Below are positions 3,351-39,044 of a DNA stretch of 48,214 nt, piece by piece. Location of the stretch: contig JACPIF010000006.1 in assembly GCA_016188215.1 (NCBI GenBank), positions 1-48,214 on the forward strand, read 5' to 3'. The first letter of the stretch is position 1; every line of letters starts with the position of its first letter. The notes under the pieces are model-generated. The model was not told the DNA's origin, made no database searches, and saw only the letters and a list, made by a program, of their open reading frames with translations. The translations under genes were made by a program, and so were the position numbers. Source of the stretch: Candidatus Woesearchaeota archaeon (lineage in GTDB: Archaea > Nanobdellota > Nanobdellia > Woesearchaeales > JACPIF01).

Positions 3351-5841
3351 GATACAATCCAGATAATGTTTTCTGGGAGATCTTAGGATTAACCTTATTC
3401 TTTTGGGCTTTCCCCGGGTGCTTCAGCTCATCATGTATCCTGCCAGCAATCTCGTCTTCCATCTCCAGCCTGTCCATGATGGCTTTTGAGCGCTCAATGA
3501 CATCCTGCGGGATGCCCGCAAGCTTTGCAACTTGTATGCCATAGCTGCGGTCAGTGCCGCCTGCAACAATCTTGTGCAGGAACACTATCTCATCCTTCTC
3601 TTCCTTGACAGCTATGCTGAAGTTCCTTATGCCCTGCAGCTTTTCAGCAAGCTTGTTAAGCTGGTGATAGTGGGTTGCAAACAAAGTCTTTGCCCCTATC
3701 GTGTCATGGATATTCTCCACAATTGCCCATGCCAGCGCTATGCCATCATAAGTGGATGTGCCCCTGCCTAATTCATCAATAATCACTAAAGAATGCTTTG
3801 TTGCAGTGTTAAGGATGGCAGCTGTCTCAACCATCTCAAGCATGAAGGTTGACTGGCCATGGCTCATGTCGTCAAAAGCACCCACTCTTGTGAAGAGCTT
3901 GTCAACAATAGGGATCTTAGCGTAAGCAGCAGGCACAAAACTTCCAATCTGCGCCATTAGGACGATAAGCGCAACCTGGCGCATGTATGTTGATTTGCCT
4001 GCCATATTGGGGCCTGTGATTATATACATGAATGCATACTCGTCCAGCATACAATCATTAGCCACAAAATCAGAGAGCTTTTCAAGTACAGGGTGGCGGC
4101 TTTCCTGCAGCAGCAGCTCAAAACTTATGCTGATCTCAGGCTTGGCGTAATTGCAATCTGCGGCGATGCCTGCAAAAGACTGCAGGCAATCAAGTACAGC
4201 AACCTGCTGGGCTATCTCCTGGATAGCTTCAGTATACTTGCTGATTTCCCGGGAAACTTCCATGAACAGGGCATATTCAAGCTCAATCATGCGCTCTTCA
4301 GCCTGCAATACTTTATCTTCCTGTTCCTTTAGCTCTGGCGTTATGAACCGCTCTGCATTAACTTGTGTCTGCTTCCGCATGTAGTCCGGCGGCACGAGAT
4401 GAAGATTCGGCCGGGTTATCTCAATATAGTAGCCGAATACCTTATTGTAGCTTATCTTGAGCGACTTGATACCTGTCCTGTTTTTTTCCTTAGCTTCAAG
4501 CTGGGCAATCCATGATTTGCCTGAATGTGCAATTGAGCGCAGCTCGTCAAGCTCCTGGTTGAAGCCAGGCTTTATGAGATTGCCCTCTCGCAATGAAACA
4601 GGCGGCTCTTCTGCGATTGCCTTTTCTATGAGGTTAACCACCGGCATGCAATCCTGCATCATGCTGAGCTCTTCAAGCAGCTCTGCATTCATTGTTTCCA
4701 GGACACTCTTTAAGGCAGGAACCTCCTCCAAAGATTTTTTGAGAGCAAGAAGGTCGCGGGCATTTGCATTGCCGAAATTGATGCGGCTGATGATGCGCTC
4801 TATATCATTCATGCCCTTCAGGAGCTGCTGCATCTCGTCCCTTAGCAGGGAGCGTTTCGCCAGCTCGTCAACTGCTTCCAGCCGCTGCTCAATCTTTTCC
4901 TTGTCAAGCAAAGGCTGGACAATCCACTTTTTCAGCAGGCGGGAACCCATAGGTGTTACTGTATGGTCAAGCACTTCCAGGAGCGTCGCCCTAGCTGAGC
5001 CATCCCTGCTATTCCTCAGAAGCTCCAGATTCCTGATGGTGGCTGCATCAAGAGACATGAAGGATGAGGTTACATGTTTCCGGAGCTTGTTGATATACCC
5101 AAGGTTTGTCTTTTGTGTTTCCTGCAAATATTTGAGCAGGGCGCCTGCTGTTGTAATGCAGGGTGAGTTTCGCTCAATGCCAAAGCCTGCAGTATCTATG
5201 ACATTAAAATGAGTGACCAGCGTATTCCAGGCGCCCTCGTGCCAGAAATGCCTGTCGTCAAAGCTGGTCATTATGGCGGCGCCTTTAAGCGAGGCGATAA
5301 ATTCCGAGTTTTCCAGGGAGACAGGTATAATGAGCTCTGCAGGAGCCAGCATGCCAAGCTCAGACTTCAGCTGCTGTACGTCATTTAATTCTGCAGTAAG
5401 GAATTCTCCTGTTGAGAGGTCAGCAGCTGCCAATGCAATAATGTTTCTCTCCTTATTGATGCAGGCTATGTAATTGTTCTGGCTATCCTGGAGCATGGAG
5501 CTCTCTATGATAGTGCCAGGCGTTACAATCCTTACTAAATCGCGCTTCACCAATCCTTTAGCCAGCTTTGGATCCTCAACCTGCTCAACAATTGCTACCC
5601 GATGACCTTTCCTGATGAGCTTGCCCAGGTAATTGTCCAATGCATGGAACGGGATGCCAGCCAATGGAGCCTGCTTCTCTCCCTTGCCGCGCCTTGTCAG
5701 CACTATGTCAAGCTCCCTGGACACAGTCTTTGCATCCTCATAGAATGTCTCGTAGAAATCGCCCATCCGGAATAAGACTATGCAGTCTGGATGCTGCTGC
5801 TTTATCTTCATGTATTGCTGCATCCCCGGCGAAAGCTCCAT
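3343..5841 (-). CDS. mutS: DNA mismatch repair protein MutS
   Basis: An 832-residue MutS1. The N-terminal mismatch-binding domain has the Phe-x-Glu motif in MGDFYETFYEDA. The C-terminal ATPase shows Walker A GPNMAGKSTYMRQ, MSHGQSTFMLEM, Walker B VIIDELGRGTSTYDG and the signature FATHYHQL. It has the full clamp/lever region and near-standard length, so it is a repair MutS rather than MutS2. It heads the operon mutS-HAD-mutL. Upstream on the minus strand GTATATAC lies about 30 bases before the ATG and is the likely TATA box. Together with the endonuclease-type MutL it gives a complete bacterial-style mismatch repair core. Confidence 0.98.
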   Translation of the reverse strand: MELSPGMQQYMKIKQQHPDCIVLFRMGDFYETFYEDAKTVSRELDIVLTRRGKGEKQAPLAGIPFHALDNYLGKLIRKGHRVAIVEQVEDPKLAKGLVKRDLVRIVTPGTIIESSMLQDSQNNYIACINKERNIIALAAADLSTGEFLTAELNDVQQLKSELGMLAPAELIIPVSLENSEFIASLKGAAIMTSFDDRHFWHEGAWNTLVTHFNVIDTAGFGIERNSPCITTAGALLKYLQETQKTNLGYINKLRKHVTSSFMSLDAATIRNLELLRNSRDGSARATLLEVLDHTVTPMGSRLLKKWIVQPLLDKEKIEQRLEAVDELAKRSLLRDEMQQLLKGMNDIERIISRINFGNANARDLLALKKSLEEVPALKSVLETMNAELLEELSMMQDCMPVVNLIEKAIAEEPPVSLREGNLIKPGFNQELDELRSIAHSGKSWIAQLEAKEKNRTGIKSLKISYNKVFGYYIEITRPNLHLVPPDYMRKQTQVNAERFITPELKEQEDKVLQAEERMIELEYALFMEVSREISKYTEAIQEIAQQVAVLDCLQSFAGIAADCNYAKPEISISFELLLQESRHPVLEKLSDFVANDCMLDEYAFMYIITGPNMAGKSTYMRQVALIVLMAQIGSFVPAAYAKIPIVDKLFTRVGAFDDMSHGQSTFMLEMVETAAILNTATKHSLVIIDELGRGTSTYDGIALAWAIVENIHDTIGAKTLFATHYHQLNKLAEKLQGIRNFSIAVKEEKDEIVFLHKIVAGGTDRSYGIQVAKLAGIPQDVIERSKAIMDRLEMEDEIAGRIHDELKHPGKAQKNKVNPKISQKTLSGLYHE

Positions 5842-6016
5842 ACCAACCCCACAATCTATGCTATATGTATATACTTAGAGCAGAAGCTAGCTAAGAATAT
5901 TTAAAGTTAGCGAAATGCATGGCATCTCGGGAACTTCCGAAATCTCCAAACCAAAAGTTTATAAGTAAAAGGTTTTCCAAAAGCTTAGTCCTAATTAAGG
6001 GCAGGAGGCATGCACT

Positions 6017-6088
6017 ATGCAAAAGACAAAAGCAAAGGCAAAGAAGAGTGAGTCAGGCGGTTGCGGCAGCTGCGGCTGCGGACACTAA
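6017..6088 (+). CDS. Cys-rich micropeptide (23 aa)
   Basis: The ATG at 6017 opens a 23-residue peptide: a Lys-rich half (KTKAKAKK) followed by a Cys/Gly tail ending GCGSCGCGH. It has a Shine-Dalgarno GGAGG at 6004-6008, 8 bases from the ATG, and a TATA-like TTTATAAG near 5958-5965, so it has its own expression signals. Three Cys and a terminal His could bind a metal or be a modification substrate. I do not recognise a named family. An overlapping longer frame from 5919 is less convincing. Confidence 0.55.
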   Translation: MQKTKAKAKKSESGGCGSCGCGH

Positions 6089-6161
6089 TTTCTTTATTTT
6101 TTCCTACTTTCTTCTTGATTTTGGCATAAGATATTTAAGTAAAGTCCATCCGATCATTGGT

Positions 6162-6338
6162 ATGGATAATAGTTTTGGGGATAGCAAATGTCTCGTGACT
6201 GATTATATGTCCGGAATGAAATATGCCCGCAGTCCTCCCTCCCCAGAAGAATTACTTGAAGCCGACAATCTTAATCCACGAGAGCTTCAGAAGAACTTGT
6301 CAGCACATCACCCTGAAATATCCAGCATCTTATTTTAA
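6162..6338 (+). CDS. Hypothetical protein (58 aa)
   Basis: ATG at 6162, about 27 bases after a TATA-like ATATTTAAG (6131-6139), which would make a nearly leaderless transcript. The product is soluble and charged, with SPPSPEELLEADNLNPRELQ in the middle. The same frame is open back to 5919, but that upstream part runs through a repeat and the Cys-rich micropeptide in a different frame, so I prefer the short version. Function unknown. Confidence 0.45.
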   Translation: MDNSFGDSKCLVTDYMSGMKYARSPPSPEELLEADNLNPRELQKNLSAHHPEISSILF

Positions 6339-27070: not shown

Positions 27071-27784
27071 TCACTTTACCGCAAACATCACAAGATATGG
27101 TTTGCCTGAAATCATATGTTCCGGGTCTTCCAATGCATATACTGATGCGTTCTGGTAGGGGAATACAGTCAGGTTTATGTTATAATTTGTCATATCTGTA
27201 AGGTCTATTGCCTGCTCTGCCTGGAGGGTGGCGAGCATCTTCTCTATAATGCGATAGAGGTACAGCAGCCTGATGTCCTGCTTTACGGAGAATTGGTTCA
27301 AAGAGATGGTGAGATCCTGCTGCTTTACATTGACAGGGAAGCTGACAGAGAATGATACATCATTAAGGTTCATGGAAGCAGAGGCTTTGGGCTGCTCATA
27401 GGAGACAGACCATTCAAGCTGCTCAAACTCTGCAAAGTTGCCAAGGCATGCCAATAGATGCTGCTCTACATACCTGGAAAGATCCTGCTCTATTGCCTGC
27501 TGGGACGGCAGCTTGTTAAGATTGCCTTTCAGGAGGTAGCTCACATTTGCAAGGGCATCTTTAGGAGCGGTGTACAGGCCCTGCCTTCCCGCGAGCTTAA
27601 GCGCATCACTGCTTGTCTTGTCAACGCATGCCTGCATATAGGAGGCGATGCTGCTCCTCTCAAATTTCAGCCTGTCTGGAGAGGCATAGCTAGAGTATAT
27701 GTAATAAAATACTATAAAAAGGAAAATGAGTATGAGCACGCCAAGTACTATAAAGATGCTGAGCTGCGCTTTTGTCTTTTTCAT
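27071..27784 (-). CDS. Pilin-like (class III signal) surface protein
   Basis: 237 residues. The start KKTKAQLSIFIVLGVLILIF has the archaeal class III signal pattern: basic residues, Ala-Gln at the cleavage site, then a hydrophobic helix, as processed by prepilin peptidases. The rest is a soluble mixed alpha/beta domain with two Cys (SYMQACVDKTS and LLACLGN) and no pilin family I can name. Its ATG overlaps the stop of the 495-residue adhesin-like gene (ATGA), so the two are coupled and probably work together at the surface. Confidence 0.65.
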   Translation of the reverse strand: MKKTKAQLSIFIVLGVLILIFLFIVFYYIYSSYASPDRLKFERSSIASYMQACVDKTSSDALKLAGRQGLYTAPKDALANVSYLLKGNLNKLPSQQAIEQDLSRYVEQHLLACLGNFAEFEQLEWSVSYEQPKASASMNLNDVSFSVSFPVNVKQQDLTISLNQFSVKQDIRLLYLYRIIEKMLATLQAEQAIDLTDMTNYNINLTVFPYQNASVYALEDPEHMISGKPYLVMFAVK

Positions 27785-29268
27785 GGAAGGTATTTCTTTA
27801 TGAGAGGATGATTGGGCGGCAGAACAGTTACCTTAGAGCCGGCTTTCTGGCTCACCACATTATCCCTGATAGTTGTATCAAAATCAGAATAATTTGTTGT
27901 GTACGTGTATACAAGATTGTCGCTCATCTCAGAGAGAGGAAGCTGGAAATTTGTCTTGAGGAAGCGGTGCATTGAATTATTGACCTGCCTCTCATATAGG
28001 GTGTGATATCTGCTTGCAAATGTCCGGGATATCTCAGGATGCTGTTGAGTGTAGGAAATCCTGAGCTGGGGAATAAAGATGAAGCCTGCATCTAATGTGA
28101 AGGATGCAGATGCGTTTGGCAGGCTGATATGAAAGAGCTGAAGGCTGCTGCTTACTACCGAAGAGCCCTTTATATGGTGCCTCAAGTATGAAACGAATCC
28201 ATGCATCTCTATTTTCTTGCTCACGAAATCAATTATTGCGCACTGGTTGCAGTTATTGTCATGCTTTTCCACCCAGTCTTTTCTGGTGCAAACTTTGAAC
28301 TGGGAAGAATTTTGGGGGATGGAAATGGCAAAATCCCTTCTTGTATCCTCAAAAGAATAGAAGGCGTAGGTGCTTAAAGGCATTAAAAATGCACAAATAA
28401 AGCCGAGAGACGGATTAAGGTAGACAGACGCATTGGTTGCGGTCTGGACAGTTTCAGTAAATGCGCCGTAGGGACCTTCAATGCCTGAGAAGCTTAAGGA
28501 GCCGTTGCTCAGGTTGTAGTATGCCGGTATTGTCTTTGTAATGACTAATGAGCTGCCTTCAGTTGCATTAAATGATGTGTGTGCAAATGACTTGTCTGTT
28601 ATGTTTATCTCATAGTCGCCATCAAAGCTTATCTGGATATCCTGCTGCTTCACCTTTACTGTGGCATTCTTCAGATCCCTCAAGGTGATGCTGTCGCTCA
28701 TCAAAGAGTCTGCCTTGCCTAAAAAGAAAGTTTGCGAGCCTGCATTAAGGTCTTCTACATTCGTTGTGATTGAGCCATCTTTAATCACAGAATCTGCGTG
28801 CTCTGCCGTCAAATTACCTTGCTTGTATTTGACGTTTACGCCATTATTAATTATAGTCTGTTGAACATTTAAGTAATCTAAATTACTAAAATAAAAGCTG
28901 TCTTGCTCAAACTCGGCATTATTATTTTCATCTCCAACATTTATGTCTAATTCCTGGATATTATATTTCTTCTTTAATGCCTTTGCAAGCTTCTGCTGGT
29001 TAAGTTCATCAAAACGCCAGTCAGGAATACTATCAAAATAAATGTAAATTTGATCTGATGTCATGCCACTTAAATCAACTGTTTCCCAGTTAGTATTTGC
29101 ATCTATAGGTGTGCCAGGACCTTCTCCACCTGAACCTGGGATAGTGGGTAAACTGTCTCCTGGCGAAATGGGGGTCTGAGGTCCCTCTACTGTGTCAGGA
29201 GCACTCACAGTATTAACAAAAAATACAAAGAGTAAAAGGTAAATAGCTACTTTAGATAGTTTTGCCAA
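27781..29268 (-). CDS. Full-length adhesin-like surface protein of the cassette array
   Basis: 495 residues beginning at a TTG (29268) with a signal peptide (VAIYLLLFVFFVNTVSA). A module shared with the proteins at 29883 and 31195 follows (about 85-240): LDINVGDENNNAEFEQDSFY, TIINNGVNVKYKQGNLTAEH, ADSVIKDGSITTNVEDLNAG, SITLRDLKNATVKV, INITDKSFAHT. The C-terminal half (about 240-495) is unique and contains KDWVEKHDNNCNQCAIIDF. It has no membrane anchor but is coupled to the pilin-like membrane protein. The periodic beta pattern suggests a beta-solenoid or jelly-roll repeat. Confidence 0.65.
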   Translation of the reverse strand: MAKLSKVAIYLLLFVFFVNTVSAPDTVEGPQTPISPGDSLPTIPGSGGEGPGTPIDANTNWETVDLSGMTSDQIYIYFDSIPDWRFDELNQQKLAKALKKKYNIQELDINVGDENNNAEFEQDSFYFSNLDYLNVQQTIINNGVNVKYKQGNLTAEHADSVIKDGSITTNVEDLNAGSQTFFLGKADSLMSDSITLRDLKNATVKVKQQDIQISFDGDYEINITDKSFAHTSFNATEGSSLVITKTIPAYYNLSNGSLSFSGIEGPYGAFTETVQTATNASVYLNPSLGFICAFLMPLSTYAFYSFEDTRRDFAISIPQNSSQFKVCTRKDWVEKHDNNCNQCAIIDFVSKKIEMHGFVSYLRHHIKGSSVVSSSLQLFHISLPNASASFTLDAGFIFIPQLRISYTQQHPEISRTFASRYHTLYERQVNNSMHRFLKTNFQLPLSEMSDNLVYTYTTNYSDFDTTIRDNVVSQKAGSKVTVLPPNHPLIKKYLP

Positions 29269-29306
29269 GTTAAAGATTTATATATGATAAGACTATTTAA
29301 TATTTA

Positions 29307-29831
29307 TCAAAAAGCATTGACTTTTGTAAAAGTAGCTTCGCTTATGGGAATTATGTAAGCGCCTTTTGATGGTCCTTTAAATCCTATAGATATATAACCT
29401 TCTGGAAATACAAAGACATAATCTATCTGTCCCTTCAATCTTTGATTCAATCTTAGAAATCTATCAAAATCAATTTTAGGATCAGTTTTAAAAATATTTT
29501 GGAAATTTCCAAAGTTTGGTCTAGTAAAGAAATATTCTTCCCATTCACCAGGTCTATATCGCAGAAACGTTTGCCTTGACATAAATTCCTGCGTTGGAGG
29601 AATTAGTCTGGCATTAGGATAAATGTCATCCTTTGGCGTAGCTCTTTCATAAACTTGATCTATACAGATATTATATTGCCTACCTTTATATTCGCAAGGT
29701 CCAAAGTCTCTTGTTGAAGGGGAAGCGTTCTGCGCATATGCAGGATTTACTGCTTTATCTATTGTAACTGGCATTACAGCCGCAGCAATTCCACCCACAA
29801 GTGCCACTAGGCCTTCTAAAGCTTTGTTCAT
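29307..29831 (-). CDS. Secreted protein of the cassette array, unknown fold
   Basis: 174 residues with an N-terminal hydrophobic signal ending NPAYAQ, the same AYAQ cleavage context as the two thioredoxin-like proteins of the array. The mature protein has a two-Cys N-terminus (GPCEYKGRQYNICIDQ) and a beta-rich end (YVFVFPEGYISIGFKGPSKG). Its promoter GAAAGATTTAAATA is identical to those of the other two cassettes. It occupies the position that thioredoxin-like genes hold in the other cassettes. Function unknown. Confidence 0.65.
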   Translation of the reverse strand: MNKALEGLVALVGGIAAAVMPVTIDKAVNPAYAQNASPSTRDFGPCEYKGRQYNICIDQVYERATPKDDIYPNARLIPPTQEFMSRQTFLRYRPGEWEEYFFTRPNFGNFQNIFKTDPKIDFDRFLRLNQRLKGQIDYVFVFPEGYISIGFKGPSKGAYIIPISEATFTKVNAF

Positions 29832-29856
29832 AGTAATGCTTAATTATACCTTAGAC

Positions 29857-29870
29857 TATTTAAATCTTTC
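29857..29870 (-). promoter_or_regulatory. Cassette promoter 1
   Basis: GAAAGATTTAAATA on the minus strand, 26 bases before the ATG at 29831. The same 14 bases precede the first gene of each cassette (see 31168 and 32500). It combines a purine-rich BRE-like part with a TATA box. Confidence 0.7.
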
Positions 29871-29882
29871 CCTTTTTAACCA

Positions 29883-30599
29883 CTAAAGAGTTACAAAAAG
29901 AGTATAATTAGGGGTGTGTGCAAATGATTTGTCAGTTATGTTAATTATGTAGCTGTCAGATGCAAAGATTTCGACCTTTTGGTTGTCTATTTTAAATGTG
30001 GAATTTTTTATGTTTCTTATGGTGATGCTGTTTGTCATTAAATAATCTGCCTGGCCAAGGAAAAAGAATAGTGCTCCAGCATTTAAATCATCCACGTTAG
30101 TTGAGATGGAGCCATCCTTAATGACAGAATCTGCGTGCTCTGCAGTCAGGTTGCCCTGCTTGAACTTTACATTTATGCCGTTGTTTATTACCGTAGTGCC
30201 AATCCCCAGATACTGAGCACTATCGAAAAAGAAGCTGTCTGATTCGAATTCAGCATTATTCGTATTGCTTCCTAGATCAATATTAACATTTTCCAGGCTA
30301 TACTTCTTCTCTAGTGCTTCCTCAAGTTCGTCATCATCCAACTCATCAAATCTATTAGTGGGAATGTTATCAAAGAATTTTAGGATTTGCTCTGAGTTCA
30401 TCTCCCAGACTGGTGAGGTTTCCCAGTTCCAGTTAGGAGAATTAATAACGTCTTCTGGAATGCCCGGGCCAGAAGTTGTACCCTCTATTCCTGATCCTGG
30501 CGTAACATCAAAACCATTTTGAGCTAATGCAAATCCTATAACAAGGATAAGCAGATGTAAATAAATCAATAATACCTTAAGGTATGCTTCTTTTAGCAT
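29883..30599 (-). CDS. Short adhesin-like paralogue
   Basis: 238 residues, signal peptide (VLLIYLHLLILVIGFALA) and the shared module: VNIDLGSNTNNAEFESDSFF, TVINNGINVKFKQGNLTAEH, ADSVIKDGSISTNVDDLNAG, SITIRNIKNSTFKIDNQKVE, ending INITDKSFAHT plus nine residues. It stops where the 495-residue protein goes on, so it lacks the C-terminal half. A TATA-like CTTATATAAG lies about 25 bases before the ATG. The last 40 codons are nearly identical in DNA to those of the 31195 gene, suggesting duplication or gene conversion. Confidence 0.65.
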   Translation of the reverse strand: MLKEAYLKVLLIYLHLLILVIGFALAQNGFDVTPGSGIEGTTSGPGIPEDVINSPNWNWETSPVWEMNSEQILKFFDNIPTNRFDELDDDELEEALEKKYSLENVNIDLGSNTNNAEFESDSFFFDSAQYLGIGTTVINNGINVKFKQGNLTAEHADSVIKDGSISTNVDDLNAGALFFFLGQADYLMTNSITIRNIKNSTFKIDNQKVEIFASDSYIINITDKSFAHTPNYTLFVTL

Positions 30600-30637
30600 T
30601 GCTTAAATTTTAATAATTCAGCTTATATAAGTTTCTA

Positions 30638-31138
30638 TTACAAAGTTGATAGATGTCTTACATTATTATTGATCTGAGCTCTTATCCTATTAAATTCAGT
30701 ATCACTTGTGGGACCACCATAATGGCTTGCAAGTCTTCTTCCATTCTTGAAATATATCACTGATGGATATTCAGCAAACCCAAATTTCTGAATTGCTTCT
30801 TCGGCTGTTAAATCGCCGCTTAATGCTCTGTATACTAAGAATTTCATGTCCCTTAATTCCTCTCTATTTGAGATTTCTGCCAAAATTTGGGCTAGGCGGC
30901 CACTGGGTGAATTTGGATTGGGTCCCTCGCTATAATACAATAATACACTTTTCCCCTCTGCTATTTGGGCATCAAGTGTAGATTTGTTTATTTTAATAAA
31001 GCGCCCTCCTGAAATTACATCTTCTACTGATCTAATTGAAGCACTTTGCGCATACGCTGGTGAAAAAGCTGCAGCTAAGGCTGTCAGCCCTATAGCGCCC
31101 GCTCCTGCCCCAAGTAGTTGCCTTCTGCTGTAGTCCAT
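30638..31138 (-). CDS. Tat-exported thioredoxin-fold protein lacking CxxC
   Basis: 166 residues. The twin-arginine signal SRRQLLGAGAGAIGLTALAA ends SPAYAQ. A thioredoxin-like fold follows: KSVLLYYSEGPNPNSPSGRL (where CxxC normally sits), then KFLVYRALSGD, FGFAEYPSVIYFKNGRRLAS with the cis-Pro. Both redox Cys are missing, so disulfide chemistry is unlikely; it may be a binding or chaperone-like domain. First gene of its cassette, with the repeated GAAAGATTTAAATA promoter 30 bases before the ATG. Confidence 0.75.
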   Translation of the reverse strand: MDYSRRQLLGAGAGAIGLTALAAAFSPAYAQSASIRSVEDVISGGRFIKINKSTLDAQIAEGKSVLLYYSEGPNPNSPSGRLAQILAEISNREELRDMKFLVYRALSGDLTAEEAIQKFGFAEYPSVIYFKNGRRLASHYGGPTSDTEFNRIRAQINNNVRHLSTL

Positions 31139-31167
31139 ATTGCCCCTTTTGTTCTTTGTTTTACTAG

Positions 31168-31181
31168 TATTTAAATCTTTC
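31168..31181 (-). promoter_or_regulatory. Cassette promoter 2
   Basis: GAAAGATTTAAATA on the minus strand, 30 bases before the ATG of the Tat thioredoxin-like gene. The flanking TTAAAAAAGGAAAG is also shared with cassette promoter 1. Confidence 0.7.
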
Positions 31182-31194
31182 CTTTTTTAACCAC

Positions 31195-31878
31195 TTAATA
31201 GTTACAAATGGGTAATTGAGGGCATTGGGCAGATGACTTGTCAGTTATGTTAATTATGTAATTATCAGATGCAAAGATTTCAACCTTTTGGTTGTCTATC
31301 TTAAATGTGGAATTTTTTATGTTTTTTATGGTGATGCTGTCTGTCATCAAGTAATCAGCTTCTCCTATGAAATACTCATCTTTTCCTGCATCAAGGAAAT
31401 CCACGTTTGCAGAGATGGCATCGCCTTTTATGACTGAATCTGCATAGTCTGCTTGGACTCTCCCATTGCTATATCTCACATTTTGGCCATTATTGATAAT
31501 AGTGGTACTGTAATCTGCTGTGGGGGTTATCTCTAAATAATCAACATCATCAAAGTAAAAGCTGTCATCCTCTATTTCTACAGTATTTACCTGGTTGCCT
31601 ACCTTGATTTCTACATCATTGAGGTTGTATTTCTTCTTTATGGCCCTGCCCAGAAGGATTTGGTCAAGCTCATCGAAGCGGAAGGATGGGATGCTTTGGA
31701 AGTTTGCTTCTATTTGAAATTCGTTTAGTGTACCGACATTGTCTGCCTGAAAATCGAATTTTTCTGGAACTGCTCCTTCTGGTTCGGTATATGCCACTCC
31801 TCCCGGGGGTGGTTCTGCACTGACTAAATTAAATGCAGAAAATAGTAGCACAATAAAAAGGAATAGCTTTAGCTGCAT
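31195..31878 (-). CDS. Short adhesin-like paralogue
   Basis: 227 residues with a signal peptide (LFLFIVLLFSAFNLVSA) and the shared module: VEIKVGNQVNTVEIEDDSFY, TTIINNGQNVRYSNGRVQAD, YADSVIKGDAISANVDFLDA, SITIKNIKNSTFKIDNQKVE, ending INITDKSSAQ and a short tail. It is truncated at the same point as the 29883 paralogue and shares its 3' DNA. TTTATATTTATAAA lies about 17-30 bases before the ATG. Third copy in the array. Confidence 0.65.
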   Translation of the reverse strand: MQLKLFLFIVLLFSAFNLVSAEPPPGGVAYTEPEGAVPEKFDFQADNVGTLNEFQIEANFQSIPSFRFDELDQILLGRAIKKKYNLNDVEIKVGNQVNTVEIEDDSFYFDDVDYLEITPTADYSTTIINNGQNVRYSNGRVQADYADSVIKGDAISANVDFLDAGKDEYFIGEADYLMTDSITIKNIKNSTFKIDNQKVEIFASDNYIINITDKSSAQCPQLPICNY

Positions 31879-31913
31879 ATTTTTAATTTCCCTTTATAAA
31901 TATAAAAAGCTTC

Positions 31914-32465
31914 CTATAACCCAAAAGAATCTGAAACTTGTTTTCTAAACCATATTTTCCAGTCATTTACATTATCTCTGTTTGGACCACCGGTTGCCGT
32001 ATAAACCATTTTTCCATCCTTATAGAAGACTATGGCTGGAATTCCTTTCAAACCGTATTCCTGCATTCTACTTCTTAACATCCTGTTAAGATCTGGTCTT
32101 TCACAATTATCCAAATATTTTGTAAACTTTACCCTTCCTTCAAATTCTGAATGTGTATCTCTAACAACTTCTGCCAATCTTCTGGAATAATCACTTCCAT
32201 TATCATAAAAAAAGACTACAACATTTCCTTTACTAATCTCTTCAGAATAATTGTTTGAACAAATACTCCTAAAATTGCTCTCGGCTAGTGTTTCATCAAC
32301 AGTTCTATAAGGTATAGAAGCACTTGGGTCTTGCCCGTTTTGCTGTGCATAGGCAGCCTTCGGAGTAAGGTAATCTGCAAGCTCTGTCCTAAGTGCGGGC
32401 TGGGCTGCGCTAAAGCCGACAAGACCGGCTAGTCCAGCTGCCAATCCCTTGATGAAGTGTGCCAT
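31914..32465 (-). CDS. Secreted thioredoxin-fold protein lacking CxxC
   Basis: 183 residues from ATG 32465, which follows GGGGGTGGGGG; a GTG at 32477 is possible but overlaps that purine run. The signal region is AHFIKGLAAGLAGLVGFSAA with cleavage near KAAYAQ. The thioredoxin fold shows NVVVFFYDNGSDYSRRLAEV (no CxxC) and YGLKGIPAIVFYKDGKMVYT with the cis-Pro. Two other Cys (RSICSNN and LDNCERPD) remain. Related in layout to the 30638 protein. First gene of the outermost cassette, with the GAAAGATTTAAATA promoter. Confidence 0.72.
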   Translation of the reverse strand: MAHFIKGLAAGLAGLVGFSAAQPALRTELADYLTPKAAYAQQNGQDPSASIPYRTVDETLAESNFRSICSNNYSEEISKGNVVVFFYDNGSDYSRRLAEVVRDTHSEFEGRVKFTKYLDNCERPDLNRMLRSRMQEYGLKGIPAIVFYKDGKMVYTATGGPNRDNVNDWKIWFRKQVSDSFGL

Positions 32466-32499
32466 ATTTGCCCCCACCCCCTACCTCTTGTTCTACACC

Positions 32500-32513
32500 T
32501 ATTTAAATCTTTC
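32500..32513 (-). promoter_or_regulatory. Cassette promoter 3
   Basis: GAAAGATTTAAATA on the minus strand, 35 bases before the ATG at 32465. Identical to the other two cassette promoters. Confidence 0.7.
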
Positions 32514-32562
32514 TATTTTATTGTCCCTTAAGAGTAGTACTTAATAGTGAATGCACTAAGGT

Positions 32563-33236: not shown

Positions 33237-33938
33237 ATGTCAATGAAACTCATGATCGTAGAGGGGCGCTATAAAGGCAATATAACGCTGGATAAGGCTG
33301 TAATAGCCAAATTGCCAAAACGGATAGGGCTTACCACAACCGTGCAATTCATTGACCAGATGCCTTCTATCAAAGCACAACTGGAGGCTGCCGGCAAGAG
33401 CGTTGAAACAGACAAGAAGCGGCAGGCGTACCATGGGCAGCTTTTAGGATGCGACTCAACTGCAGGGGAATTTATGCAAGATGCAGTTGATGCATTCCTC
33501 TATGTTGGCACAGGCTTGTTCCATCCTATCAATCTTGGGATGAATGTGAATAAGGAAGTGTATCTTTACGATCCCTTTACTAAAAAGCTTGAGCTCATGG
33601 ACAAGGGCATTGCAAGGAAAATGCAGCAGAAGCGGCAGGCTTTCATCAAGAAATTCCATGCAGCTTCCAATATCGGCATCTTGGTCAGCATGAAATCAGG
33701 CCAGGGTAACTTTGAGAAAGGGATGAAACTGAAGAAAGAGCTTGAAAAGCAGGAGAAGCATGCATATCTATTTGTGTTTGAGACACTTGACTTCAGCCAG
33801 CCTGAGAATTTCCCATTTATTGAGTGTTGGGTAAATACAGCATGCCCCAGGATATTTGATGATTACGAGAAGTTCAGCAAGCCTTTAGTAAATATGGATG
33901 ACATCTCTAGTTATGGGTTCCACAAGAAATTGTTCTAA
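33237..33938 (+). CDS. Dph2-like protein, short form
   Basis: 233 residues. It matches the second and third domains of archaeal Dph2, the radical-SAM-like [4Fe-4S] enzyme that starts diphthamide on EF-2: GQLLGCDSTAG, DAFLYVGTGLFHPINLGMNV, YLYDPFTKKLEL and CWVNTACPRIFDDYEKF. Usual archaeal Dph2 is about 340 residues with three cluster Cys, one per domain. Here the N-terminal domain is reduced and its Cys is missing; the second (LLGC) and third (NTAC) remain. Whether it still binds a cluster is uncertain. ATTTAAATAA near 33210 is the likely TATA box. Confidence 0.8.
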   Translation: MSMKLMIVEGRYKGNITLDKAVIAKLPKRIGLTTTVQFIDQMPSIKAQLEAAGKSVETDKKRQAYHGQLLGCDSTAGEFMQDAVDAFLYVGTGLFHPINLGMNVNKEVYLYDPFTKKLELMDKGIARKMQQKRQAFIKKFHAASNIGILVSMKSGQGNFEKGMKLKKELEKQEKHAYLFVFETLDFSQPENFPFIECWVNTACPRIFDDYEKFSKPLVNMDDISSYGFHKKLF

Positions 33939-33941
33939 GCA

Positions 33942-34235
33942 TTAAGATTTGGGATGCGCACCCCCAGAATGCAAGACAACTTCTCCTTCTACAGGGGAAG
34001 GTACGCTGATGGAAGGCCTTTCCAGCTTTTCCTCCAGCGTCTCAACACCATCAAGTATTTCCCTGGTAGGAACTCTCTCCGGAGCTTTGGCCTCTTCAGA
34101 ATATACAGAGGCAGGATTGAGTTGTAAAGGGTATTGATGCATGCCCATTTGTTGGCCGTAAGCGCTTGAATATGCAGTAACTGCTAAAGCAGTGCCGGCA
34201 ATAACAAGTACTTTATATTTATGAGCTAAAGTCAT
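33942..34235 (-). CDS. Small secreted protein (97 aa)
   Basis: A hydrophobic signal (KVLVIAGTALAVTAYSSAYG) followed by about 65 polar residues rich in Pro, Glu and Val, with no Cys. It lies downstream of the giant subtilase on the same strand and converges with the Dph2-like gene, 3 bases apart. No family recognised. It may be a natively unfolded surface peptide. Confidence 0.55.
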   Translation of the reverse strand: MTLAHKYKVLVIAGTALAVTAYSSAYGQQMGMHQYPLQLNPASVYSEEAKAPERVPTREILDGVETLEEKLERPSISVPSPVEGEVVLHSGGAHPKS

Positions 34236-34276: not shown

Positions 34277-37200
34277 TCATTGCTTCCGTCTGCCTTTCCT
34301 TTTCATAAAGAGATACAGGATAAAGCCTGTCAGGATAATGGCTGCTGTCAATGCAAGGCCGATGATTGAATCAGGCTCTTCCGGCTTCTCGGCGGGGCCT
34401 GACTGCACCTGGCCAACTGAAGCTGTTGTTTTTACGCTTGCTGCCCCATATGTAACATTGCCCTGATTATTAGCCTGCACTACCTCAGGCCCGATTGATT
34501 CGTTCTTTTCCTCGCTTGGCTGCTTTTCCTCTTGCACTGGCGGCTTATCTATTGTAACGGCAAATAATGAGAAGCCTGGAGTGATTGCACGATAGCTATA
34601 CTCATTTCCCACTTTCTGAAGCATGGTTGTGGGCAATGCATCCCATGAGGATATAACATAATGCTTTAAGACAACATTCTCGGAAGCTGCATTGTGCTGG
34701 CTAAGCCAGCTTTCATTTACCTTGAACTCAATGCTTGCTGCCCTGATGTTGCCATTCTCAAGGTTTACAGTGCTGATATTAAAATACTGATTGGCTATAG
34801 GCAGCGCAAGAGGCAGCTTGGAATCATTTATCTTCGCTATTGCAATGTCTACTTTTTCAGCCTGGCTTATAGTCTCGAAAGTGAGCCTGCTCAAGGCAAA
34901 ATCCCTCCGATTGGTATTCATGGTGTATGGTTGATTAGGAGAAACCAAGTCATAGAACCTCTGTACCTTGTCCAGGGCAGCAGAGCCGCCACCGCCACCT
35001 CCTCCGCCACCTCCTCCGCCACTGCTTCCCCCAGATGGACTTGAAGAGCCTGAAGAGATGCTGATGCTGAATGAAGTAGTATTGGAAGCTCCCATTGTGT
35101 TTCCGGAGCTGTCATTGCATCTGACATAGTATGTGCCGGAGCTGGTTGAGCTGTAGCTTTTTGAGGCAGTATGGGCGGTTACTGAGTCTGTCATGCTGAG
35201 GCCTAAGGATTCAAAAGAAGCGTCTTCCTCGGCATACCTGCACGTTGCATTCTCATCTGTAGTTACAGACAATGTTATTGAGCTGCCGGAGTTTGATGTG
35301 CTTATAGCTGTGACTAACGGAGCTGCGGTGTCGTTCGCCTGCGTAACCCCTGTGTGGGCAAGACCTGTCACCTTGTAGCGAGAGCCATTCAATTCACAGC
35401 CGTACTGCCTGAATGTTCCAGGGCACTTAAGGAAGGTTTCATTTGTTTGTTTGCAGCTGCTTGATATCTGGTCAATAGAAATGATATCCGCATCCTTGAT
35501 GCAGACTCCTTGCAGGTCAGTGCGGTTGTCCAGATAAATAGTCTTGTTTATTCCTGAAAATAATGGCATACCCCTTACTATAAGGGAGCCAACTGATGAG
35601 TTTGAATTCTGTGTGACAGTGATATTAGTCAAGTCAAGCTTTGTAGTGTTGAATGAGATGTTCAGCTCAACAAACTTGTCTGTATTATTGGATATCACGA
35701 CTAAAAGAGATTCATTCCTAACAACATTGTAGGTATCAGTGCCGTTTATCGTTATGTTTATGCCGGGCACATTGCTCCTTACATAGCTGAGATTTCCGAT
35801 GATTGAATTGGAGCGGTTAAATGGCGAGACTTCAGTAGTGAAATTGAAGCTTGTCATTGACAGGTTGTTGCCAGCCCTGTCTGTAATGCCTGCCTTTAAG
35901 GTCAGATTGTATGTCTCATTAAATGATAGCGCTATGTTCGGGATGATAACTGTCTGGTTGGAGCTGTTATAGATGAAGGCGGCGGTTATGTTGGAGCCCC
36001 TGCTGTCTACCAGGATGAAGTTGAGATTTGAAAGGGTTGCATTTGTTATGTTCTCGCTGAAGTTTATGGTGAAGTTTGTGGTGATTTGAATGTTGGCAGT
36101 GTTATTTGCAGGGTCTATGGCAAGGATCCTGGGAGCTGTAGCATCTGTGCTTATAGTGCGTACTTCTGTCCTGTTCTGGAGATTTGCGCGGTCCCTGACA
36201 GTTACGTTGTAGACATATGTTGTATCTGTCAAGCCTGTGAAGTTGATGAATGAAGTCAATGAAGTGTAATTGGTCTCATTAATCAGGGAGAGGTTATTTT
36301 GATAGTATAAAGAGAAGGTAATATTTGCAAGGTTCGTTTCTGTTACTGTCACATTGATTAGGATAGAGCTGCTGTTAGTTACTGAGTTGTTGGCTGCGGT
36401 AGTTGCCTCAAAAGCTATAGATGGGGCCCTTGAGTCCAGGGTGATGTTCCTTGTCGCAGTAATATTTATGTTACTTGCCTTGTCATACGCTGTCACGTTG
36501 TACAAGTATATACCATCTCCTAAACCTGTGAAATTGGTTAAGTTCTGGCTTGAGTAGTTTGTTTGGTTGAGCAAAGCGCCATTGCTGCCGTTGTACAGGA
36601 AGAAGCTTAGATTGTTGAAGTTTGCATCTGCCGTTGATATGTTGATGAGTATATAGCTGCGGTTGAAAGCTGTGGCATTAGCCTCAGTGCCATTTGAGAA
36701 ATCTATTGCGGGAATAAGCGTGTCAAGGTTGATCAGCCTGTATTCAGTCGTATTTACATTGTTCATGCGGTCACTTATGTTTACAGCAATGTAATAAACT
36801 GCGTTAGCATTACTCGGAGTAAAATTTGTTGTATTTGTAGCAGTGGTAAAGTTTGTTATGTTTAACACTGCAAACGAGGAATCAGTCAGTATGTAGCTTA
36901 TGTTGTTGAAATTAAATTCATTAAACGAGATATTTAGAAATATCCAATTCCTATTGGAGAAGCTGTTGTTGCCTAACGTCGGGGAGGCAAACACGATGCC
37001 CGGTGCAGTTATGTCATTGATTATCCTCCTGGTTTCCGTGCTGTTTACATTATTTGCCTTGTCAATCACTGAAACATTTACTAGGTAGACTGCATTCAGG
37101 TTTGAAAGGGAGAAATTAATGGTGCGGTTGAAATCTGAAAGGTTTGTGTATGTTGTTGCATTTACCAGAACTGTGTCATTGGATAAATTGTATAGATAAT

Positions 37201-39010
37201 AGGTGATATTTGCGAAGTTGGCATCTGAAGCAGTAACATTGAGGAATATCCAGCCTTTTGTTACAAATGTGTTGTTTGCATCACTTCCTGTTGAGAAGTT
37301 GAGGTTTGGGGTTATGTTGTCAAGGGTTACTATCCTGTTCTCAGTGAAATTGACCTGGCCGAGCACGTCTGCAATCGTGACATTGAAATAATACGCTGCA
37401 TTGGATAAGTTTACCGTGAAATTTGTTGTGTTTACTGCGGTGGTATATGTTGTCGCATTTATTATACCAAATGAGGAGTTCATAAGTGTATAGGTTATAT
37501 TTGCAAGTGCTGCTTTCAGCCCTATGCTTGAGTTCACCAATATCCAGTTCCTGCTCAGGAAACTGTTGTTTGCATCGGCGCCCGTGGCATAGGAAACTGT
37601 TGCATTGGCAATGTATTTGGTCGCATTAAAGACATCTATCCGTGTAAATGTCAAACCGCTGCCTCCAGCATCATTGAGGCGCCTGCCTGTCCTGTTCAGG
37701 AAATCCTGGATCTCAGAAGGCGTAAAATTGACGCCTCGCTCCAGCCTGCCGAATTGCCTTATAAGGGCAAATGTGCCCGCAACATGAGGGGTTGCCATGG
37801 ATGTGCCGCTCAGGGCGGTGAATCCGCCTCCCCTCAACAAAGAAGTTATAGTGCTGCCTGGGGCAAGCAGGTCAGTGATATTCCCTCTGTTAAACCCTGA
37901 AAACCCATCTGCTTTAGTGGTAGAGCTTACTGCCGTCGCATTGTTGATGCATGCAGGCGCAGTCAATGAGGTCTTGCTATTATCATTTCCAGCAGCAACT
38001 ATCACTGATATGTTTCTTGCAAATGCGGCATCAATGGAGCTGTCAAATGCAGTTTCACTGGCATCGCAATACGTGTCATAGAGGATGCTGCCCCCCAAAC
38101 TCATGCTTATTATAGAGATATTAAACTTTGAGGCATTGCTTACACACCAGTCAATGCCGTTGATAACATTTGCTTCGCTTCCTGAACCTGTTGAGTTCAA
38201 TACCTTGAGCGCAACAATCTTGGCTCCAGGAGCAACTCCAGGATATGTTTTATTTGTAGAGGCAGCAATGCCTGCTACATGGGTGCCATGATCCTCATCA
38301 TCTATGGGATTCTCATCCGAATTGACGTAGTCGTAGCCTCCGATTACCTTGCTGCAGGTGCCATCAAGGAATGTTGTGCTGGTGCAGCCGCCCATGTCAG
38401 GATGCGTGTAGTCAACACCTGTGTCTATTATACAAATAGTCTCTCCAGAGCCATTTATGCTTATACTGTTTAGGGTAACATTCCAAAGATTAGTTGCATT
38501 TATCAGTTGTGTAGTGTTATCAATGATTGCCCTGACTTCACTGTTTGGATAAATACCTTCAACATTAGGGTCACTCTTCAGCTTTTCCAGCGTGCTTCTC
38601 TTTATCTTCCCAGCAAACCCATTGACCAATGAGTATGTATTGGTAAGCTCTAATTCGTAATCTGATGAAGCTGCAGCTGAAATCCCAGTTTCCTTGCCCC
38701 TGCCCTTTTCCTTTACCTTCAACTTGCCAAGAACCTTCTCCCGCTGGCTCTTTACCATGTCCCTGCGTTGCTCATCCTTGCTTTTCTGCACTTCATCCCT
38801 GTTTTTACTAATGCTGTAGCCGGATACAGAGCTATCTATGTCATATTCTTTCAACATGACAATGACAGAAACCTCATCACTTTGGCTTAATAGCTCGTCA
38901 ACCTCAGGATCAACCTTTGCCTCGTACTGTGTGCCAGCGGCTGCTATTGTGACAAGCGCTAGCGCCATCACTGCAATTAACAGGATACCTACCTTCACCT
39001 CTACCCTCAT
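34277..39010 (-). CDS. Giant surface subtilase (S8) with repeat stalk and C-terminal anchor
   Basis: About 1577 residues. After the signal peptide comes a propeptide-like segment (SVIVMLKEYDID), then the S8 domain (about 190-470) with the triad in CIIDTGVDYTHPDMGG, DHGTHVAGIAAS and SGTSMATPHVAGTFAL, oxyanion Asn in AAGNDNS. A stalk of at least six Asn/Thr-rich beta repeats of about 90 residues follows (pattern NFANITYYLYN, TLDNITPNLNF), then a Big-type domain (DPANNTANI), a poly-Gly hinge, a PGF-pre-PGF-like domain (FYDLVSPNQPY to GFSLFAVT) and a membrane helix with basic tail. I choose ATG 39010 over 39022 because TTTATAAAT at 39036-39045 predicts a start of transcription near 39015. Confidence 0.9.
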   Translation of the reverse strand: MRVEVKVGILLIAVMALALVTIAAAGTQYEAKVDPEVDELLSQSDEVSVIVMLKEYDIDSSVSGYSISKNRDEVQKSKDEQRRDMVKSQREKVLGKLKVKEKGRGKETGISAAASSDYELELTNTYSLVNGFAGKIKRSTLEKLKSDPNVEGIYPNSEVRAIIDNTTQLINATNLWNVTLNSISINGSGETICIIDTGVDYTHPDMGGCTSTTFLDGTCSKVIGGYDYVNSDENPIDDEDHGTHVAGIAASTNKTYPGVAPGAKIVALKVLNSTGSGSEANVINGIDWCVSNASKFNISIISMSLGGSILYDTYCDASETAFDSSIDAAFARNISVIVAAGNDNSKTSLTAPACINNATAVSSTTKADGFSGFNRGNITDLLAPGSTITSLLRGGGFTALSGTSMATPHVAGTFALIRQFGRLERGVNFTPSEIQDFLNRTGRRLNDAGGSGLTFTRIDVFNATKYIANATVSYATGADANNSFLSRNWILVNSSIGLKAALANITYTLMNSSFGIINATTYTTAVNTTNFTVNLSNAAYYFNVTIADVLGQVNFTENRIVTLDNITPNLNFSTGSDANNTFVTKGWIFLNVTASDANFANITYYLYNLSNDTVLVNATTYTNLSDFNRTINFSLSNLNAVYLVNVSVIDKANNVNSTETRRIINDITAPGIVFASPTLGNNSFSNRNWIFLNISFNEFNFNNISYILTDSSFAVLNITNFTTATNTTNFTPSNANAVYYIAVNISDRMNNVNTTEYRLINLDTLIPAIDFSNGTEANATAFNRSYILINISTADANFNNLSFFLYNGSNGALLNQTNYSSQNLTNFTGLGDGIYLYNVTAYDKASNINITATRNITLDSRAPSIAFEATTAANNSVTNSSSILINVTVTETNLANITFSLYYQNNLSLINETNYTSLTSFINFTGLTDTTYVYNVTVRDRANLQNRTEVRTISTDATAPRILAIDPANNTANIQITTNFTINFSENITNATLSNLNFILVDSRGSNITAAFIYNSSNQTVIIPNIALSFNETYNLTLKAGITDRAGNNLSMTSFNFTTEVSPFNRSNSIIGNLSYVRSNVPGINITINGTDTYNVVRNESLLVVISNNTDKFVELNISFNTTKLDLTNITVTQNSNSSVGSLIVRGMPLFSGINKTIYLDNRTDLQGVCIKDADIISIDQISSSCKQTNETFLKCPGTFRQYGCELNGSRYKVTGLAHTGVTQANDTAAPLVTAISTSNSGSSITLSVTTDENATCRYAEEDASFESLGLSMTDSVTAHTASKSYSSTSSGTYYVRCNDSSGNTMGASNTTSFSISISSGSSSPSGGSSGGGGGGGGGGGGSAALDKVQRFYDLVSPNQPYTMNTNRRDFALSRLTFETISQAEKVDIAIAKINDSKLPLALPIANQYFNISTVNLENGNIRAASIEFKVNESWLSQHNAASENVVLKHYVISSWDALPTTMLQKVGNEYSYRAITPGFSLFAVTIDKPPVQEEKQPSEEKNESIGPEVVQANNQGNVTYGAASVKTTASVGQVQSGPAEKPEEPDSIIGLALTAAIILTGFILYLFMKRKGRRKQ

Positions 39011-39044
39011 ATCCCCTGCCAACCTATGAACAATTTATAAAAGT

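Follow-up and report, generated by a model that had tools for sequence, protein, structure and literature searches.

The window analysed here, a stretch of 48,214 nucleotides (nt), makes up contig C9 of a very small, Woesearchaeales-like genome (1.11 Mb in 13 contigs), and carries on its minus strand an array of three units encoding putative surface proteins (Table 1). The order of transcription is P1-trx1-A1t, P2-trx2-A2t and P3-X3-A3f-pil, where P denotes a promoter-like sequence, trx1, trx2 and X3 are small, predicted exported proteins (referred to as S), A1t, A2t and A3f are members of one paralogous family (A) and pil is a membrane protein. S and A genes are separated by 35, 38 and 38 nt, and pil overlaps A3f by 4 nt (27781-27784); gene overlaps may be overstated, since start codons were set mechanically as the first ATG, GTG or TTG. 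A search of the genome with A3f recovered no A copies beyond the three in the window.

Table 1. Features of the three-unit array, in order of transcription (aa, amino acids; BRE, B recognition element).
Feature	Positions	Strand	Description	Basis
P1	32500-32513	-	BRE/TATA-like promoter of unit 1	exact 14-mer GAAAGATTTAAATA
trx1	31914-32477	-	predicted exported thioredoxin-like protein, 187 aa, no CXXC, leader ending in AYAQ	Pfam and alignment
A1t	31195-31878	-	truncated A, 227 aa, N-domain only	homology to A3f
Tract, copy 1	31168-31372	-	homogenised tract: A1t tail, stop, intergenic stretch, P2	repeat families D2, D5
P2	31168-31181	-	promoter of unit 2	exact 14-mer GAAAGATTTAAATA
trx2	30638-31138	-	166-aa predicted exported thioredoxin-like protein with AYAQ and a twin-arginine-like leader; lacks cysteine	sequence
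A2t	29883-30599	-	truncated A, 238 aa, mosaic (5' A3f-like, 3' A1t-like)	informative sites
Tract, copy 2	29857-30063	-	homogenised tract: A2t tail, stop, intergenic stretch, P3	repeat families D2, D5
P3	29857-29870	-	promoter of unit 3	exact 14-mer GAAAGATTTAAATA
X3	29307-29831	-	174-aa predicted exported protein with AYAQ; no thioredoxin match in Pfam	Pfam; relatives
A3f	27781-29268	-	full-length A, 495 aa, N-domain and C-terminal putative tether half	homology, profile
pil	27071-27784	-	membrane protein, 237 aa, class-III-like N-terminus (KAQLSIFIVLG)	sequence, model

Over the part that they share with A3f, A2t and A1t are 55% and 41% identical to it, in agreement with a previous sequence-only reading of this DNA, which had proposed an adhesin-like paralogue in each unit. 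Both short copies lose homology within a few codons of one residue, about aa 229 of A3f (A2t tracks A3f as far as ...CATTTGCACACAC and then departs), as that reading had also noticed, and the whole C-terminal tether half is absent from them. The long copy had been described as the inner one and is instead the last, promoter-distal copy, while the extent first assigned to the array (27781-32514) reaches 27071 once the anchor gene pil is counted. In the predicted structure of A3f, long strands make up the N-domain (about aa 103-260), with a predicted local distance difference test score (pLDDT) mostly above 84, which we read only as an elongated beta-meander. The best E value among PDB sequence relatives of A was 1.3; no Pfam match above the curated cut-off was obtained for A or pil among the members scanned, nor did the A3f and pil of the window match any NCBIfam family at E 0.1 or better.

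Relatives of the A genes occur within the same order. A profile of the A C-domain (E 0.001) matched 25 of the order's 352 genomes, this one among them, and 15 of the 180 more complete ones; the N-domain profile at the same threshold matched 22 of the 352, at least two by chance (G200 and G202, dropped, with open reading frames (ORFs) that to us read like NAD kinase). Scanning contigs of relatives with A3f alone gave no match, and with the profile 7 loci, the named records being six Candidatus Woesearchaeota and one Nanoarchaeota. None of the 99 relatives searched is from the window's genus or family, every row shown being from the same order. Twenty-one other genomes were tabulated, with L060, L067, L069, L070, L072, L073 and L074 omitted for contig ends or weak matches (L060 is probably the other half of the A gene of L086). 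Immediately upstream of A, each of the 21 has an S-like ORF; pil is next downstream of A in 13, overlapping it in 10 of these, and is fused to A in one (G119). The ancestral form in these relatives, mostly retained in single copy, is one cassette of S, A and pil, with pil usually overlapping A. X3-A3f-pil conforms to this module, with S directly upstream and pil adjacent, and the two short units lack pil. An identical arrangement in all relatives, which the sequence-only reading had named as evidence against itself, was not observed, the relatives being arranged differently. In one locus (L056:1539-2265, G206) pil is split into two overlapping frames, a frameshift in nature or in the assembly. 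A literature search at the level of abstracts found no description of an S-A-pil module.

Fusions of A and pil occur in G119 and in G024, the latter outside the 21-genome table as its A is cut by a contig end. In both, A ends near LPP or FPP and is followed by a hydrophobic segment, RRR or NRK, and the pil transmembrane segment, forming between the two parts a two-segment membrane hairpin that would leave A and the body of pil on the same, outer side. Because of these fusions a physical complex of A and pil is predicted and, together with the overlap in most genomes, they constitute the best evidence that both proteins may act together.

The N-terminus of pil, a few basic residues followed by KAQ and a hydrophobic helix, is reminiscent of archaeal type IV pilins and class III signal proteins, and the larger pil paralogues in the same genome begin the same way. 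The pil of the window has no Pilin_N match (1/13 pil members has one, at E 0.048) and its body, modelled as three helices and a sheet, has no good PDB match: Foldseek gave none at E 0.001 or better and the best VIA-align Z was 6.6, to T4 gp25. Of the coupled pilin-like membrane protein proposed earlier, the coupling stands in the 4-nt overlap with the long A, whereas the pilin label is not supported by the predicted fold when searched with either program; an unlisted family is possible. A Pfam match of one pil member (1/13) to an STIV-like capsid family (E 0.00099) was taken as chance. The larger paralogues of pil are three frames in contig C1 and one in contig C11 (two matches); in L075:5922-7880, L076:3869-6031, L076:7481-10060 and L077:6591-7862 the pil region comes first, followed by long extra domains.

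The S slot is more variable. While AYAQ is present in all three small proteins, as the sequence-only reading had stated, the secreted proteins that it placed in each unit are not one clear family. trx1 passes the Pfam Thioredoxin model (PF00085; 27.2 bits against a cut-off of 23.5) and its alignment covers most of the fold, the GIPAIVFYKDGK stretch included, yet when it is aligned to solved thioredoxins the WCxxC site is replaced; trx1 and trx2 differ from this family in having no CXXC, in their predicted export and in sharing a cassette with A. trx2 has weak matches to thioredoxin-fold models and matches trx1 in phmmer at E ~1e-8, and X3 matches no thioredoxin-fold model in the Pfam scan, distant relatives of X3 occupying the same slot in G152 and G191. 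The 27 S rows tabulated, to which the window contributed three and G040, G206 and G152 two each, are all without CxxC, and a twin-arginine-like leader is seen in 12. Three 352-aa proteins in the slot lack an N-terminal hydrophobic stretch and have an internal one. As 3 of 21 S proteins scanned match Thioredoxin and 5 match TPR_2 (E 0.01 or better), the slot holds a variety of small proteins, most of them predicted to be exported. A tree of 8 thioredoxin-like S proteins has no starred branch. Two S genes were seen in G152 (L058:1292-1816 and 5743-6240), one X3-like and preceding A, the other trx1-like and standing alone further on; their leaders look alike and their mature parts do not, which would fit a swap of leaders or of S bodies.

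Each unit has an exact minus-strand copy of GAAAGATTTAAATA, as reported earlier. With up to 2 mismatches this 14-mer occurs 7 times in the window against 0.91 expected (0/100 shuffles reach 7), and 7 of its 10 exact copies in the 1.11 Mb genome lie outside the array, 6 of these preceding an ORF of at least 70 aa that starts within 120 nt. The sequence presumably corresponds to the archaeal BRE plus TATA consensus. These further copies, together with 27 genome copies of GAAANNTTTAAATA against 2 of the reversed control, suggest that it is the general consensus of this genome, and a signal specific to the array was thereby ruled out: the one promoter said to be repeated three times is indeed found in all three units, and elsewhere as well. 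P2 and P3 are 93% identical over a 41-nt context, P1 being less similar. The 14-mer ends 22-29 nt upstream of the S start codons as called, a spacing that suggests leaderless or nearly leaderless transcripts.

A2t is a mosaic. Over 224 informative sites it is A1t-like at 63 of the first 161 and at 51 of the last 63, switching from A3f-like to A1t-like at about aa 187 (maximum chi-square 31.7; permuting sites or codons gives p = 2e-4 in either case, the lowest value attainable with 5000 shuffles). The tails of A1t and A2t are 82% identical, with nonsynonymous (dN) and synonymous (dS) divergence of 0.16 and ~0.45, against 52% identity upstream of the tail, and the A1t-like tract crosses the stop codon and the intergenic stretch to end just past the TATA box of the next promoter. 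Outside the tract the copies are ~52-59% identical at the DNA level and dS is saturated (returned as -1). Recombination between cassettes, suggested by the sequence-only reading, is supported by this mosaic and by the passage of the tract through the stop into the next promoter. The nearly identical 3' ends and promoters on which that suggestion was based are shared by copies 1 and 2, the 3' end of A3f not being among them.

The three A N-domains of the window form one clade (98/99) in a tree in which 9/14 inner branches are drawn open, and for this reason the copies appear to have arisen in the window's lineage; on the sequence evidence, the expansion is one by partial tandem duplication. Further partial or decayed A copies are present in 5/21 other genomes, indicating that partial duplication and decay recur in this module. 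G206 has, on another contig, an S gene and a 257-codon A, an intact short copy with its own S; G040 has a TPR-type S and an A of 247 codons that may be decaying, since its match runs across a stop; and the cassettes of G186, G191 and G207 have short A fragments next to them. The locus itself seems old, since a Dph2-like gene adjoins the cassette in five relatives of another family (G178, G179, G191, G206 and, as a fragment at a contig end, G194) as here, where it is one Nudix gene away.

The short A genes of the window stay open at 52-59% DNA identity to the other copies. Random mutation of the corresponding part of A3f to the same identity, when simulated, introduced ~7 stops and lowered amino-acid identity to 23-29%, with stop-free runs in 0/300 at 53% identity and 2/300 at 59%. 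In the 46-codon tail shared by A1t and A2t, the differences at codon positions 1, 2 and 3 number 2, 3 and 11 (P ~0.004, hand-worked, for at least 11 of 16 at one codon position), which is what continued constraint on the truncated products would produce.

Taken together, the array probably arose when a conserved surface module of Woesearchaeales, S-A-pil, expanded in this lineage, with short forms kept by selection and later homogenised. A would be exported, with the C-terminal half next to the pil anchor in the membrane region and the beta-rich N-domain pointing outward, and with S as a small exported, exchangeable partner (a redox-dead thioredoxin fold, TPR or other). Two further units would have come from partial tandem duplication. 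Both have a promoter and an S of their own and, of A, the N-domain half only; for this last reason these units would not be coupled to pil, and their products are probably untethered or loosely attached. Recombination may later have copied ~200 nt, a gene tail and the next promoter, between them. Several observations weigh against this explanation. The family is patchy, with 327/352 genomes lacking a C-domain match, and pil lies upstream of S in 2/21 genomes (G179, G191), on the opposite strand in 1/21 (G059) and was not seen in 4/21 (G207, G197, G268, G157; three of the contigs end nearby, and G157 and G268 are unexplained or cut). trx1, trx2 and X3 are too diverged for duplication of whole units, S together with A, to be shown. 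The C-terminal half of A3f is poorly predicted (pLDDT mostly 33-65), Foldseek and VIA-align give no confident known fold for A or pil, and the module is described here from sequences and predicted structures.

The mosaic could also be the product of a single unequal crossover between A1t and A3f, without later gene conversion, which predicts the observed direction, A3f-like at 5' and A1t-like at 3'. Such an event predicts equal ages on both sides of the switch, but the 5' split between A2t and A3f (dN 0.385, dS saturated) seems to predate that between the tails of A1t and A2t, the tail is not a slower region (dN 0.43 between A2t and A3f), and trx2 resembles trx1 and not X3. Later copying fits better because of this older upstream split, and we consider a lone crossover a minor, though real, possibility; the ~200 nt were apparently homogenised between the short units afterwards, though not recently (dS ~0.45). 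Tandem paralogues with a recombination mosaic and a shared tract would also be consistent with antigenic variation, the short cassettes serving as donors for conversion of the expressed long copy, through which the surface protein would vary. Gene-conversion cassette arrays for surface proteins are exemplified by gonococcal pilS and Borrelia vls, which the window resembles in its tandem truncated paralogues, single full copy and mosaic. In contrast to these, every copy has its own promoter and leader, so that there are no promoterless silent donors, divergence is high (52-59% identity elsewhere, tract dS ~0.45, no near-identical tracts) and the tract is common to the two short copies only, A3f lying outside it. 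The proposal that the array varies surface proteins at present is thus not supported, and antigenic variation is very unlikely.

Alternatively, the short copies may be functionless by-products of tandem duplication heading to decay, as the decayed fragments in G186, G191 and G207 and perhaps the second copy of G040 illustrate. The copies in the window, despite saturated divergence, retain start, leader, S partner, promoter and 227-238 open codons, changes in the shared tail fall mainly at third positions, and G206 has an intact short copy with its own S, all of which make relics an unlikely explanation. With respect to function, VIA-align of the A3f model returned, after a first row titled only 'membrane protein' (Z 9.1), LptDE or LptDEM entries in 8 of the first 9 rows (Z 7.3-8.7; in one, a root-mean-square deviation of 2.8 over 105 residues), as if the N-domain were an LptA/LptD-like (OstA) beta-taco conducting lipids, for example from a host. 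The sheet arrangement of the predicted N-domain looks similar; nevertheless, VIA-align calls a Z of ~8 common, TCP10, MORN and OspA sheets follow at Z 5-7, Foldseek has no match for A3f at E 0.001 or better, and no OstA or LptA family appears when 10 members are compared with Pfam at E 1 or better. To our knowledge, an outer membrane is not expected in such an archaeon. A lipid-conducting role is therefore highly improbable.

Little is understood of host contact in DPANN archaea, and names are lacking for most of the proteins that they export. The expansion of S-A-pil would add a conserved, partly syntenic three-gene module for the DPANN surface, that is, an unnamed, testable surface system and not a new principle, and A and pil offer a family for annotation. 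The short copies without tether would represent a natural experiment on which half of A needs the anchor. More tentatively, the module may itself be an undescribed Woesearchaeales surface apparatus for host contact, a membrane-tethered, beta-rich stalk with swappable S (redox-dead thioredoxin, TPR or X3), from which untethered units of S and half of A split off repeatedly and are kept by selection as released or alternative tips.

Other genes flank the array. A 97-aa predicted exported protein with AYGQ (33942-34235) has no relative among the loci searched. A subtilase-like, predicted exported protein of 1581 aa with repeats and a C-terminal membrane anchor is encoded at 34277-39022; a relative lies near the cassette of G206, and SppA is near that of G178 and G191. 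The Dph2-like protein (33237-33938, 233 aa) matches only positions 95-293 of the 308-position Dph2 model; a short form seems normal at this locus, since those of relatives are also ~232-235 aa long.

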